Assembly: GCF_024171765.1 (NCBI RefSeq)
Contig: NZ_JAMTCI010000001.1
Coordinates: 2,156,796-2,220,795 of the forward strand
Source: Williamsia deligens
Lineage (GTDB): Bacteria > Actinomycetota > Actinomycetes > Mycobacteriales > Mycobacteriaceae
Direction of reading: 5' to 3'
DNA length: 64,000 bases
Of this stretch, positions 14,177 through 63,540 are shown piece after piece. Every line of letters starts with the position of its first letter. Positions within the stretch are counted from its first letter, which is position 1. A program made the position numbers and the translations under genes. The notes beneath the pieces are model-generated. The model saw nothing but the letters and a program-made list of their open reading frames with translations, ran no database searches and was not told the DNA's origin.

Positions 14177-14180
14177 CCCC

Positions 14181-14256
14181 GAGCGTGCAGTAGATTCCGC
14201 TGAGCGTGCGGAAAATGCCCGCCGAGTGTGCAGAAAATGCCCGCCGAGTGGGTAGT
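14181..14256. repeat. intergenic tandem array A: four units, 21-22 bp, core GAGYGKG
   Basis: In the gap between convergent bluB and the MBL gene, the core repeats with GAG at 14181, 14202, 14224 and 14246: GAGCGTGCAG, GAGCGTGCGG, GAGTGTGCAG, GAGTGGGTAG. Two units share the tail GAAAATGCCCGCC. Spacings are 21, 22 and 22 bp. It belongs with the arrays at 15078, 33416 and 44313. Confidence 0.8.
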
Positions 14257-14258
14257 TC

Positions 14259-15074: not shown

Positions 15075-15077
15075 CTG

Positions 15078-15176
15078 CCGCCCACTCGCCGTCTCCAACC
15101 GCCCACTCGACGTCTCCAACCGCCCACTGGACGTCTCCTGCCGCCCACTCGACGTCTCCAACCGCCCACTCGACGG
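15078..15176. repeat. intergenic tandem array B: five 21-bp units
   Basis: Between the two leftward genes the plus strand reads CGCCCACTCGACGTCTCCAA-type units with the CTC/CTG core at 15085, 15106, 15127, 15148 and 15169, an exact 21-bp period. On the coding strand each unit carries GAGTGGGCGG and then TTGGAGAC or CAGGAGAC. It directly abuts the MBL start codon, contains no stop codon in the MBL frame, and may influence its translation. Confidence 0.88.
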
Positions 15177-15181
15177 GTGGG

Positions 15182-32233: not shown

Positions 32234-33391
<1,158 letters not shown>

Positions 33392-33415
33392 CCTCCCAGC
33401 CCGTCACCCCACCCG

Positions 33416-33572
33416 TCGAGTGGGCGTTTACACACGTCGAGTGGGCGTTTGACGACGTCGAGTGGGCAGTTGGAGACATCGAGTGGGCGGCCGAGCAGTC
33501 CGCGCGTCGTCAACCGCCCAGTCGACGTTCGTAACCGCCCAGTCGACGTCGTCAACCGCCCACTCGACGGGG
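33416..33572. repeat. intergenic array C: four forward and three inverted 21-bp units
   Basis: Forward units GTCGAGTGGGCGTTTG have GAG at 33418, 33439, 33460 and 33481. Inverted units GTCAACCGCCCACTCGAC have the complementary CTC/GTC at 33521, 33542 and 33563. Both halves keep an exact 21-bp period. The halves are complementary over tens of bases and could form a long imperfect hairpin between convergent fadA6 and the small membrane-protein gene. Confidence 0.9.
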
Positions 33573-33608
33573 TGGGGGTGGGGGTCGGGGTGGTGCCGGC
33601 GTGAGCGG

Positions 33609-33995
33609 TCAGTGGGCCGCGGTCTGGGCGACGGCGACGACCACCAACCCCAGCGACAACGCCACGAACGACAGGCCTGAGACTGCCTTGTAGAGCAGGT
33701 TCTGCTGGATCTCGGCACGGAACGCGAGTGGCGCGAACAGCACCGGGTTGATGATCCCGCCGATCGCCACGAGCACCAGCGACCAGGCGGGGGAGTCGTG
33801 CCCGACCGCCCCGACGGCGACCATGAGCACGCCCATGATCACCCAGTCGAGATGCAGCTGGAGCACCCGCCGCGGGTGCTGGACCCCGACCTTGGCCAGC
33901 GCATCGGGCTTCTCGACCATGAGCGTCACGGCGAATCCGGACACCGCACCGATCGCGGTCGACCACAGACCGATGAGCACCAGGATGTCCGCCAC
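33609..33995 (-). CDS. small four-TM membrane protein, possibly SOI/HAB-mutase-like
   Basis: A 128-residue protein with four hydrophobic helices. The first (ILVLIGLWSTAIGAVSGFAVTLMV) is followed by RVLQLHLDWVIMGVLMVAVGAVG, whose histidine-acidic pattern just before a Gly-rich helix recalls styrene-oxide isomerase and hydroxylaminobenzene mutase. A third helix (SLVLVAIGGIINPVLFAPLAF) contains an Asn-Pro, and the last is AVSGLSFVALSLGLVVVAV. GTG at 33995 gives the shortest sensible N-terminus. The family link is a weak visual resemblance; no function can be assigned. Confidence 0.6.
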   Translation of the reverse strand: MADILVLIGLWSTAIGAVSGFAVTLMVEKPDALAKVGVQHPRRVLQLHLDWVIMGVLMVAVGAVGHDSPAWSLVLVAIGGIINPVLFAPLAFRAEIQQNLLYKAVSGLSFVALSLGLVVVAVAQTAAH

Positions 33996-42609: not shown

Positions 42610-44308
42610 CCGACCTCCTGCACAGCGAGACCGCGGCGCACGTCGTCGACGATCTCTTCGACCGCATCGACGCCCTCGACCGCCCCGAGATCTTCGTCGA
42701 CCTGCGGCCCCGTGAGGACGTCCGTCGCGACCACGCGGCGTCCATCGCCGCCGGCGGGCCGCTCGCCGGGCGGATCCTGGTGGTCAAGAACAACGTCGAC
42801 GTCGCCGGGCTGCCCACGACCGCCGCGTGTCCGGGATTCGGCCGCATCGCGGCGACCGACGCGCCGGCGGTCGCGGCCCTGACGTCGGCGGGCGCCGTTG
42901 TCCTCGGCACCACGAACCTCGACCAGTTCGCGACCGGCCTGGTCGGCACCCGCAGCCCGCACGGCGCGGTCCGCGACAGCCGCCGGCCGGAGTTCATCTC
43001 CGGTGGGTCGAGTTCGGGCTCCGCCGTCGCGGTCGCCCTCGGTGTCGCCGACATCGCCATCGGCACCGACACCGCCGGGTCGGGACGGATACCCGCGGCG
43101 CTGCAGGGGATCGTCGGGATCAAGCCGACCATCGGGGTCGTCTCCACCGAGGGTGTCGTGCCGGCATGTGCGAGCTACGACTGCGTGACGATCCTCGCCC
43201 GCGACGTCGCCACCGCCGACGCCGCGATGGCCGCCATGGCCGCGGCGGGAGGACCACGCCCGTTCCCCGCGGACCTCCCGCTCGCCGCACCCGCGGTGCC
43301 GGTGGTCGCCGTCCCGGCTGACCTGCCGGCGATGGACGGGGCGTGGCGGGACGCCTTCCAGGACGCGATCGCGCGGTGCCGCGACCTCGGCTGGACAGTG
43401 CGCGAGATCCCCATCGATCACTTCCTCGCCGCCGCGGCGCTTTTGTACGACGGTGCGCTCGTCGCCGAAAGGTACGACGCGGTGGGGGAGTACGTCGACG
43501 AGGCGCTGTCCGACCACCGCGTCGGGGCACTCGATTCCACGGTCGCGACGATCATCAGCGCGGCGGGCCGGTTCTCCGCGGTCGACCTCCTCGCCGACCG
43601 CCGCCGTGTCACCGAACTGCGGACCGCGGCGATGGCGCATGTCGAGGGATGCGACGCGATGGTCGTGCCGACCGCGCCCTTCCACCCGTCGATCGCCGAG
43701 GTGGCCGCCGATCCCGTCGCGACCAACGCGCGCATGGGGACGTACACGAACTTCTGCAACCTCTTCGACCTCGCGGCGATCGCCGTGCCGGCGGATCCGT
43801 CGACGACGGTGACCGTGGCACAGCGCAGTTCGGCATCACCCTGCTGGCCCCGGCACACCACGACGCGGTCGTCGTCGACCTCGCCCGGCGGTTCGTCGGC
43901 GACGACCCGGAGACCGCCGGCTGGCCCGAGGCGGTGGCCCCGACGGTCGATCTCGCCGTCTTCGGCGCACACCTGCGCGGCCAGCCGTTGGACCACCAGC
44001 TGACCTCACGGGGCGCACGATGGTCCGGGCATCTCACGACCGCGCCGCGCTACCGGCTGGTCGAGTTGGCGACGCAGCCACCGAAACCGGGGCTCGTCGC
44101 CGACGCCGTCGAGGGGAGGCGCATCCGCGGTGAGCGATGGTCGATGTCGACCGCTGCGCTGGGCGCGTTCCTCGCCGAACTGCCCGAGCCGATGGGGCTG
44201 GGTGCGATCACCCTCGACGACGGTTCATCGATCATCGGGTTCACCTGTGCCCACGACGCCGCCGAGGCGGGACACCCCCTCGACGTGGACCACTGGCTCG
44301 ACCGCTGA
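42606..44308 (+). pseudogene. allophanate hydrolase with a -1 frameshift
   Basis: The first frame from GTG 42606 encodes the amidase-signature domain: KNNVDVAGLPTTAACPGFG, GGSSSGSAVAVALG, DTAGSGRIPAALQGIVGIKPT. After YTNFCNLFDLAAIAVPA it breaks. The rest of the protein, FGITLLAPAHHDAVVVDLARRFVG and the C-terminal decarboxylating domain (FGAHLRGQPLDHQL to DDGSSIIGFTC), lies in the next frame. One extra G in GCGGATCC near 43791-43797 would restore AVPAGSVDDGDRGTAQFGITLL, and the total length (1703 nt) is one short of a whole number of codons. The enzyme hydrolyses allophanate to CO2 and ammonia. This is a real mutation or a one-base sequencing error. Confidence 0.85.
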
Positions 44309-44312
44309 CCCG

Positions 44313-44388
44313 CCGAGTGGGCCAAAACCCGTCGCCGAACGTGCCGAAACCCCACACCGAGCGGGCCAAAACCCCGCCGAGCCTGCCG
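44313..44388. repeat. intergenic array D: four degenerate 20-22-bp units
   Basis: Between the convergent allophanate hydrolase and methyltransferase genes the core recurs at 44315 (GAGTGGGCCAAAACCC), 44337 (GAACGTGCCGAAACCCC), 44359 (GAGCGGGCCAAAACCCC) and 44379 (GAGCCTGCC), with 22, 22 and 20-bp spacing. It is closest to array A because of the A-rich tails. Confidence 0.75.
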
Positions 44389-62596: not shown

Positions 62597-63472
62597 ATGC
62601 GTACCTTCCGGCCGTTCGCGGCGCTGCTCCCGGTTCTCGTCGCCGTCGGTCTGACGACGGCTCCGGCGCAGGCGGCACCGTCCGTCGACATGCAGATCCG
62701 GTCGCTCGCGGCCGCAGCCCACGTCGACGTCGGGGTGTGGGCACGGGATCTGACGACCGGACGGGTGATCGCGTCGGTCGACGCCGACCGGCGGTTCCCG
62801 GTGCTGTCGATGTCGAAGGTGTACCTCGCGGCAGCAGTGCTCGATGCCGCCCGCCACGGTCGGCTGCGTCTGGACACCCCGGTGCCGGTCCGCGCGCGGG
62901 ACATCGTCGCCAACTCGCCGGTCACGCAGACGTTCGTCGGACGCACCATGACCTACCCCGAGATCGCGACCGCGGCGCTGCAGCGCAGCGACAACACCGC
63001 GGCGAACCTCATGTTCGCCGCGATCGGTGGCCCCGCCGCGGTGACGGCGTTCGCCCGATCTGTCCGCGACCCGGCGACGGTGATGGTGCGACAGGAGACG
63101 GCGCTGAACACCGCGATCCCCGGGGACCTGCGCGACACGACCGTCCCCCAGGCGTGGGCGGCGGGGCTGCGCGCGGTGATGGTCGGCGACCGGCTCGATC
63201 CCCGCGACCGGGCGACGCTCGTCGGGTGGATGCGCGGGACGAGGACGTCGGACAAGCGTTTCCGCGCGAACCTGCGCGCCGGATGGACGTCGGCGGACAA
63301 GACCGGCTCCGGCGACTTCGGCACGGCGAACGACGGCGGCCTGCTCATCGGGCCGCGGGGACAACGGATCCTGCTGGTCGTGCAGACCCGCAACAGCCGT
63401 GTCGACCCCGACGCCACGCCTAACCAGGACATCATCGGGCGGGTGGCTGCGCTGGTGGCGCGCGCGGTCTGA
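62597..63472 (+). CDS. class A beta-lactamase, secreted
   Basis: A 291-residue serine beta-lactamase. The signal peptide MRTFRPFAALLPVLVAVGLTTAPAQA should be cut before APSVD. All active-site motifs are present: SMSK (S70-x-x-K, about residue 71), SDN in RSDNTAANL (about 130), ETALN (E166 region, about 166) and KTG in DKTGSGD (about 235). It is therefore probably active on penicillins. ATG at 62597; a CACACT about 6 bp before it may be a leaderless -10. Its stop lies in the first copy of a tandem repeat. No bla regulator is adjacent. Confidence 0.87.
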   Translation: MRTFRPFAALLPVLVAVGLTTAPAQAAPSVDMQIRSLAAAAHVDVGVWARDLTTGRVIASVDADRRFPVLSMSKVYLAAAVLDAARHGRLRLDTPVPVRARDIVANSPVTQTFVGRTMTYPEIATAALQRSDNTAANLMFAAIGGPAAVTAFARSVRDPATVMVRQETALNTAIPGDLRDTTVPQAWAAGLRAVMVGDRLDPRDRATLVGWMRGTRTSDKRFRANLRAGWTSADKTGSGDFGTANDGGLLIGPRGQRILLVVQTRNSRVDPDATPNQDIIGRVAALVARAV

Positions 63473-63540
63473 CGGGTCAGGCCTTTGTCCGCCTGACGGG
63501 TCAGGCCTTTGTCCGCCTGACGGGTCAGGCCTTTGTCATC
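63468..63540. repeat. three tandem copies of a 24-bp unit at a convergent junction
   Basis: CTGACGGGTCAGGCCTTTGT occurs three times (from 63469, 63493, 63517), 24 bp apart, almost identical. Each copy contains the small inverted repeat CTGAC-GG-GTCAG. The first copy overlaps the beta-lactamase stop and the third the stop of the KSI-like gene, so the array looks like a duplicated 3' gene end. Confidence 0.9.

Follow-up and report, generated by a model that had tools for sequence, protein, structure and literature searches.

We found a family of short tandem arrays, built on a 21- or 22-bp beat, that sits closely behind genes in Williamsia deligens and related species. The arrays are placed at 3′ ends, avoid genes and promoters, keep their positions at the loci examined while their spacers and types turn over, lie in gaps where hairpins are scarce and tend to point in the sense direction. 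Each array could be a 3′-end module of the preceding gene that replaces a hairpin terminator. We consider this reading quite possible, if short of probable; its function is something we infer, and its protein step, described below, is a guess.

The window, i.e. the whole stretch of 64,000 nucleotides that was analysed, contains the arrays listed in Table 1. An earlier note on this DNA had described four forward and three inverted units at an exact 21-bp period between a thiolase gene and a membrane-protein gene. This layout is confirmed, with a span of 33415-33568, near the 33416-33572 originally given. The unit consists of GTCGAGTGGGC and a 10-bp spacer, and the step from unit to unit is exactly 21 bp throughout each half. 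The fourth forward unit starts with ATCGAG, and two of the three inverted units read GACTGGGC instead of GAGTGGGC. The stop codon of the thiolase gene lies just 5′ of the forward half, and the 128-aa protein on the other side has no Pfam or NCBIfam match. As the note had also claimed, the gap lacks a canonical terminator, in that none with a T-tail was found in 33300-33700, and three further gaps of the window contain the core too, one with the same type of array and two with a related, sister type. In the window, the sister type has CGAGYGTGC-like cores at steps of 20-22 bp. The array at 15 kb stops about 6 bp short of the next start codon. The gene to the left of the array at 44 kb, which ends near 44290, was missed by the gene finder and read by eye.

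Table 1 Arrays and flanking genes in the window
Feature	Position	Strand	Details
Thiolase gene	32234..33391	+	Own gene finder; Pfam Thiolase_N/C; NCBIfam acetyl-CoA C-acetyltransferase; labelled fadA6 in the earlier note
Array, forward half	33415..33488	+	4 units at 33415, 33436, 33457 and 33478; period 21
Array, inverted half	33516..33568	-	3 units at 33516, 33537 and 33558; 21-bp step; co-oriented with the right-hand minus-strand gene
Gene for 128-aa hydrophobic protein	33609..33995	-	Own gene finder; membrane-like by eye; convergent with the thiolase gene
Array of the same 21-bp type	15080..15172	-	5 units; minus-strand genes on both sides; co-oriented with the upstream PPOX-type gene
Array of the sister type (CGAGCGTGC/CGAGTGTGC)	14180..14253	+	4 units; steps 21, 22 and 22; convergent gap
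Array of the sister type (CGAGTGGGCCAAAACC...)	44314..44386	+	4 units; steps 22, 22 and 20; convergent gap

The proposal that the element is genome-wide holds as well. Tandem pairs of the 11-bp core at a spacing of 20-22 bp occur 46 times in the whole genome, far above the reversed control, which has none. The single 11-mer core has 110 matches (20 for the reversed control), a wider core pair has 107 (control, 5) and the sister-type pair has 33 (control, 0). The 13-mer of the earlier note, with up to three mismatches, is at chance level in the window (36 seen, 35.9 expected), so the array signal resides in the exact cores and their period.

Related species also carry arrays. The strict core pair is present in seven of eight Williamsia genomes, including that of W. 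deligens, at 0 to 55 per genome. In a wider set of 61 genomes, 11 have this pair (7 Williamsia) and 13 have the sister-type pair (8 Williamsia). Named genomes, among which the window's own records are possibly absent, were scanned for core pairs 21 bp apart, which gave 65 stretches: 56 in Williamsia, 7 in Gordonia and 2 in Bacteroidetes metagenome-assembled genomes (MAGs). The array layout agrees between L045/L054 (G002) and L063 (W. serinedens). Periods of 21 and 22 bp make up 57 of the 77 extragenic tandem repeats in the own-genome and background loci and 74 of the 102 in the named loci, although these loci were selected for arrays; within the background stretches, one of ten such repeats has a period of 21. 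The earlier note knew of no named repeat family that fits, and we likewise recognised none in the literature searched, judged by title and the start of the abstract.

In the two Bacteroidetes stretches (L066:94-399 and L111:2399-2798), the GCCCACTCGA core is shared but the spacers of the long 21-bp arrays are AT-rich, and next to a gene end L066 has three successive 21-bp arrays with differing units. These arrays may be due to chance, to convergence or to kinship, and both loci were left out of the placement and later counts. A convergent gap at L160:10517-10648 contains another tandem family, with a 39-bp period, beside a strong hairpin; its unit combines two GTGGAGCG half-units, each roughly 20 bp long.

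Placement was determined in 33 stretches around arrays, 20 background stretches of 16 kb and 63 named loci, with genes called by a home-made finder based on codon usage. The background stretches were hand-picked at round coordinates outside all listed arrays, so the absence of arrays from them is uninformative. The own-genome loci were drawn from about the first 100 of the 110 (11-mer) and 107 (wider pair) matches, which cover contig 1 and possibly miss the last contigs. Of 63 arrays called in these loci, 62 lie outside genes and 1 inside, and in the 63 named loci none of 92 arrays lies inside a gene.

Among the 46 array gaps examined in the W. deligens genome, 28 are convergent, 17 tandem and 1 divergent; the corresponding counts for named loci are 34, 25 and 3. 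Array-free gaps of at least 60 bp, taken from the background and the window, are distributed differently (13 convergent, 84 tandem and 56 divergent; Fisher p 1e-12 for convergent enrichment of the own array gaps). A variant-tolerant caller gives 6 divergent gaps among 106 with arrays. Arrays in tandem gaps are located a median of 25 bp past the upstream stop and 62 bp ahead of the next start in the W. deligens genome, and 16.5 and 72.5 bp, respectively, in named loci. The earlier note's link to gene ends is thus supported by the 3′-end placement and the near-absence inside genes; copies are neither missing elsewhere nor scattered at random within genes, but are found genome-wide.

A single gene is sometimes flanked by a forward and an inverted array (L150, L158, L145; L072, L061, L106), an arrangement common to several species. 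It is natural if the arrays end the outer genes, and also looks cassette-like.

The arrays are oriented. In gaps with two arms, forward-then-inverted order occurs 25 times and inverted-then-forward order 6 times (p 0.0009; one RFR and one RR gap left out), and arrays of a single orientation in tandem gaps are sense in 21 cases and antisense in 8 (p 0.024). These counts are partly non-independent because some gaps are orthologous. In the W. deligens genome alone, the counts are 11 vs 3 for arm order (p 0.06) and 8 vs 3 for sense (p 0.23). The variant-tolerant caller gives 34 vs 5, with one RFR gap set aside, and 20 vs 8; seven Gordonia loci were left out of the named set in its counts.

Arrays and strong hairpins rarely share a gap. 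Folding was evaluated with arrays masked, in gaps of 60-500 bp and at a threshold of -28 kcal/mol or better, without the seven Gordonia loci and divergent gaps. A strong fold is present in 8 of 58 array-bearing convergent gaps, as opposed to 16 of 22 array-free ones (p 9e-7), where shuffled sequences lead us to expect 4.7 and 7.3, respectively. One of the eight, the window gap at 44003, contains a gene missed by the finder; the other seven are L134, L149, L158, L062, L113, L118 and L122. The contrast is also seen in tandem gaps (2 of 32 vs 74 of 204) and in convergent gaps of like free length, 70-150 bp (2 of 21 vs 10 of 13). At a threshold of -32 kcal/mol, 7 array-bearing convergent gaps (1.2 expected) and 13 array-free ones (2.0 expected) retain a fold. 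An earlier count of perfect stems of at least 9 bp, which preceded the energy-based count, had given no clear contrast (3 of 27 array-bearing convergent gaps, one stem being made by the array itself, vs 5 of 18 array-free ones). In most array gaps, then, no terminator-like hairpin is present besides the array. The ppa gap represents the converse situation: six of eight Williamsia genomes have a strong fold there, one has a weaker fold and one is not readable, and no array was called in any of the eight loci.

Array positions are often kept between species. The gene pair around the thiolase gap is retained in five of eight Williamsia genomes, and all five have an array, which is of the main, two-arm type in G000, G006 and G002 and of the sister type, in one orientation, in G001 and G007. 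The gene order is lost in the other three: G003 and G005 have no array, and G004 has a 43-bp repeat. In G004, which has no strict main-type core pair, the orthologue of 33609-33995 is followed by this repeat, downstream of 1884 in L185, and to the eye the repeat resembles two drifted units (21 and 22 bp). The PPOX gene has an array behind it in G000, G002 and G006 (same neighbour) and in G003 (other neighbour), none in G001, G005 and G007, and at most one unit-like site in G004. Altogether, 21 array gaps of W. deligens have an orthologous gap among the other loci compared, most of which were picked for carrying arrays, so that shared arrays are favoured. No array was called in G006 at the 14176 gap. 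When four orthologous gaps that were empty according to the caller were read by eye, drifted units that keep the beat were seen in three (two in L123, one in L114) and none in L060.

Within the unit, positions 1, 2, 12 and 21, which were not fixed by the search, carry 1.7-2.0 bits, and positions 13-19 carry 0.3-1.5 bits. The CHRR-6 unit joins GTCGAGTGGGCGG to AAAACCCC and so may be a link between the main type and the sister type. The family as a whole looks like a case of concerted evolution among dispersed bacterial repeats that have no known transposase.

The array unit has a near-fixed core, ACGTCGAGTGGGCG in this species when counted across the unit boundary, in which the G of GAG is most variable, and the spacer between cores, about 7 bp long, is only loosely conserved. 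Two to eight units follow one another on the 21-bp beat (21/22 bp for the sister type), which corresponds to two DNA turns. If the arrays are 3′-end modules, they may end or block transcription, or insulate convergent neighbours. A protein could bind the cores on one DNA face and serve as a roadblock, a guess prompted by the constancy of the period, the conservation of the core and the fact that single-orientation arrays are mostly unstructured. The half-forward, half-inverted layout would arise where two convergent genes meet, each with a module of its own. Against this reading, 8 of 28 single-orientation arrays in tandem gaps are antisense, 6 of the 106 array gaps are divergent, as noted above, two single-arm folds beat shuffles (see below), and seven array gaps also hold a strong hairpin.

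More broadly, the arrays might form a hairpin-free class of gene-end elements in Williamsia and some Gordonia. These would be directional, helically phased sets of protein-binding sites that terminate transcription or insulate convergent genes. Their DNA code would turn over in concert across the genome, as if tracking a changing binding protein, while period and sites stay fixed. We regard this fuller proposal as rather doubtful. To our knowledge, how transcription ends in high-GC actinobacteria without a U-tract is an open matter. The arrays are a testable candidate for gene ends that lack a hairpin, with dozens of sites that keep their place but not their spelling and that are thin around the origin.

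Two alternatives place the function in the RNA. The earlier note had suggested that the complementary halves could form a long hairpin or cruciform; on this view, inverted arrays might be bidirectional RNA hairpin terminators or RNA stabilisers. Strong folding of the whole gap is the part of this claim that stands: the predicted RNA fold of the window gap is a single long hairpin with imperfections (z -8.0, -139.4 kcal/mol), and none of 200 shuffles was as good. Forward-then-inverted is also the commonest two-arm order, yet either order would fold equally well, and the preference for one is not accounted for. The halves of the window gap folded singly have z-scores of +0.8 and +1.0, and five of seven single-arm stretches are within -0.8 to +1.0, i.e. 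no better than shuffles. The exceptions are the sister-type stretch at 14177-14258 (z -4.9), which favours a hairpin, and the minus strand of 15075-15181 (z -2.3). A selected long stem would need matching spacers in the two arms, but spacer likeness in W. deligens is 0.530, vs 0.605 for permuted arms (none of 2000 permutations was as low), and it is 0.611 vs 0.631 in W235 and 0.699 vs 0.706 in W. serinedens. Pooled over 30 gaps, it is 0.598 vs 0.624 (P of a null value as low, 0.03); CHRR-6 and two small sets, with too few two-arm gaps, are outside this comparison. The three Gordonia gaps show the opposite, with arms that are alike (0.598 vs 0.507). Moreover, 66 of 106 array gaps (variant-tolerant caller) have a single orientation, the window array has no T-tract, and one G003 gap has unlike arms, with a sister-type arm following the PPOX gene and a main-type arm facing it. 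We therefore dropped a selected hairpin or cruciform as the main reading, and action as an RNA hairpin seems improbable. Rho-dependent termination is very improbable. The strand that reads GCCCACTCGACGTCTCCAACC is C-rich and little structured, making it a candidate Rho loading site, and the C-rich RNA from the plus strand of 15075-15181 indeed folds no better than shuffles (z +0.4). However, most gene ends have the G-rich strand as their sense strand, which would usually put the loading site on the wrong RNA.

The other alternatives concern the DNA itself. The arrays could be a dispersed minisatellite, selfish or neutral, that moves or converts from locus to locus and persists only where the harm is slight, after genes and away from promoters. 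Their spacer consensus is species-wide (GGTTGGAGAC in W. deligens, GGTTCCGGAC in W. serinedens and GGAAAACCCC in CHRR-6), copy number changes, and neighbours on the same strand are most alike (0.80 in W. deligens). Arm likeness is 0.64-0.71 within species and 0.34-0.61 between species, and orthologous arms are not clearly more alike than all arms of the same two species (W. deligens and W235, 0.545 vs 0.594 for all arms; W. deligens and W. serinedens, 0.654 vs 0.610). Nevertheless, a freely spreading repeat does not readily explain why positions are kept across species although the flanking gap DNA differs by eye, why the core is conserved and the spacer variable, or why hairpins are scarce where arrays sit; in addition, the Y1 transposase family is found in none of the eight Williamsia genomes. 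We judge this explanation unlikely. A role in nucleoid structure or supercoiling, with sites for gyrase, a nucleoid protein or a domain factor where convergent transcription piles up positive supercoils, more so away from the origin, is quite unlikely. The two-turn period and the convergent gaps would suit it, and REP elements have been hypothesised to act in supercoiling, according to PMC3733652. It would also suit the distribution around dnaA (C1:1593695 in G000): 6 of 42 array gaps on contig 1 are within 600 kb of this gene, where 39% are expected (p 0.0007; 4 of 29 for merged clusters, p 0.006), while convergent gaps of at least 60 bp are equally common in ten near and ten far stretches (six in each). 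A plain terminator does not predict this depletion. On the other hand, a supercoiling element predicts neither the scarce hairpins nor the sense bias, and there is no replichore orientation. With 26 of 56 arms pointing away from dnaA, a replication-oriented signal was likewise rejected. On contig 1 of G000, the arrays are thin for roughly 0.6 Mb on either side of dnaA, about 0.95-2.15 Mb.

Among known systems, REP/BIME elements are the closest kind: the placement agrees, but the unit structure and the RAYT-type transposase do not. In PMC3733652, REPs are described as short, extragenic elements in many copies, mostly in convergent or co-directional gaps, where they follow stop codons closely and frequently form oppositely oriented pairs; their unit is a 20-40 bp palindrome. 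CGTC REPs are described there as mainly HH dimers with stems of 8-9 bp, with negligible HT dimers. The main text of that paper has no match for Gordonia, Williamsia, mycobacter- or actinobacteria. Our arrays resemble the GTAG and CGTC superfamilies in being extragenic, downstream of genes and in convergent or co-directional gaps. However, the array unit is not palindromic by eye and its consensus is not self-complementary, so there is no palindrome to carry a GTAG or CGTC tag (CGTC sits inside the array core), and head-to-tail repetition at 21/22 bp is the rule. A RAYT-driven REP was rejected: the transposase that goes with GTAG REPs (PF01797) is found in none of the eight Williamsia genomes and in 5 of 14 control genomes.

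Intrinsic terminators occupy the same place as the arrays and seldom share a gap with them; most single-arm array stretches are unstructured relative to shuffles; a hairpin with a T-tract was looked for at the window array, and none was found. The arrays share with bacterial minisatellites and VNTRs that they are tandem and intergenic and vary in copy number between species. Mycobacterial MIRU units are longer than the array unit. Unlike minisatellites and MIRUs, the arrays repeat one core and one period at dozens of loci, with positions kept across species.

Several other identities were set aside. A CRISPR array does not fit the 21-bp period or the 10-bp spacers, which are alike across the genome and not unique. 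A protein-coding repeat (21 bp being seven codons) is disfavoured by the location of the arrays after stop codons and by the 22-bp steps, which break the frame. A G-quadruplex was considered by eye; the sister type has no G-runs. A mycobacterial intergenic repeat, taken as a possible cousin, was found in 1 of 121 genomes of the family, and this lead was dropped.

At the gathering score, Rfam detects no structured RNA family at the window arrays; its sole match in the window is a SAM-IV riboswitch at 2506-2624 (105 bits). At 63469-63537, nearly three perfect 24-bp repeats of CTGACGGGTCAGGCCTTTGTCCGC, which differs from the array unit, span a convergent gap and touch both gene ends.
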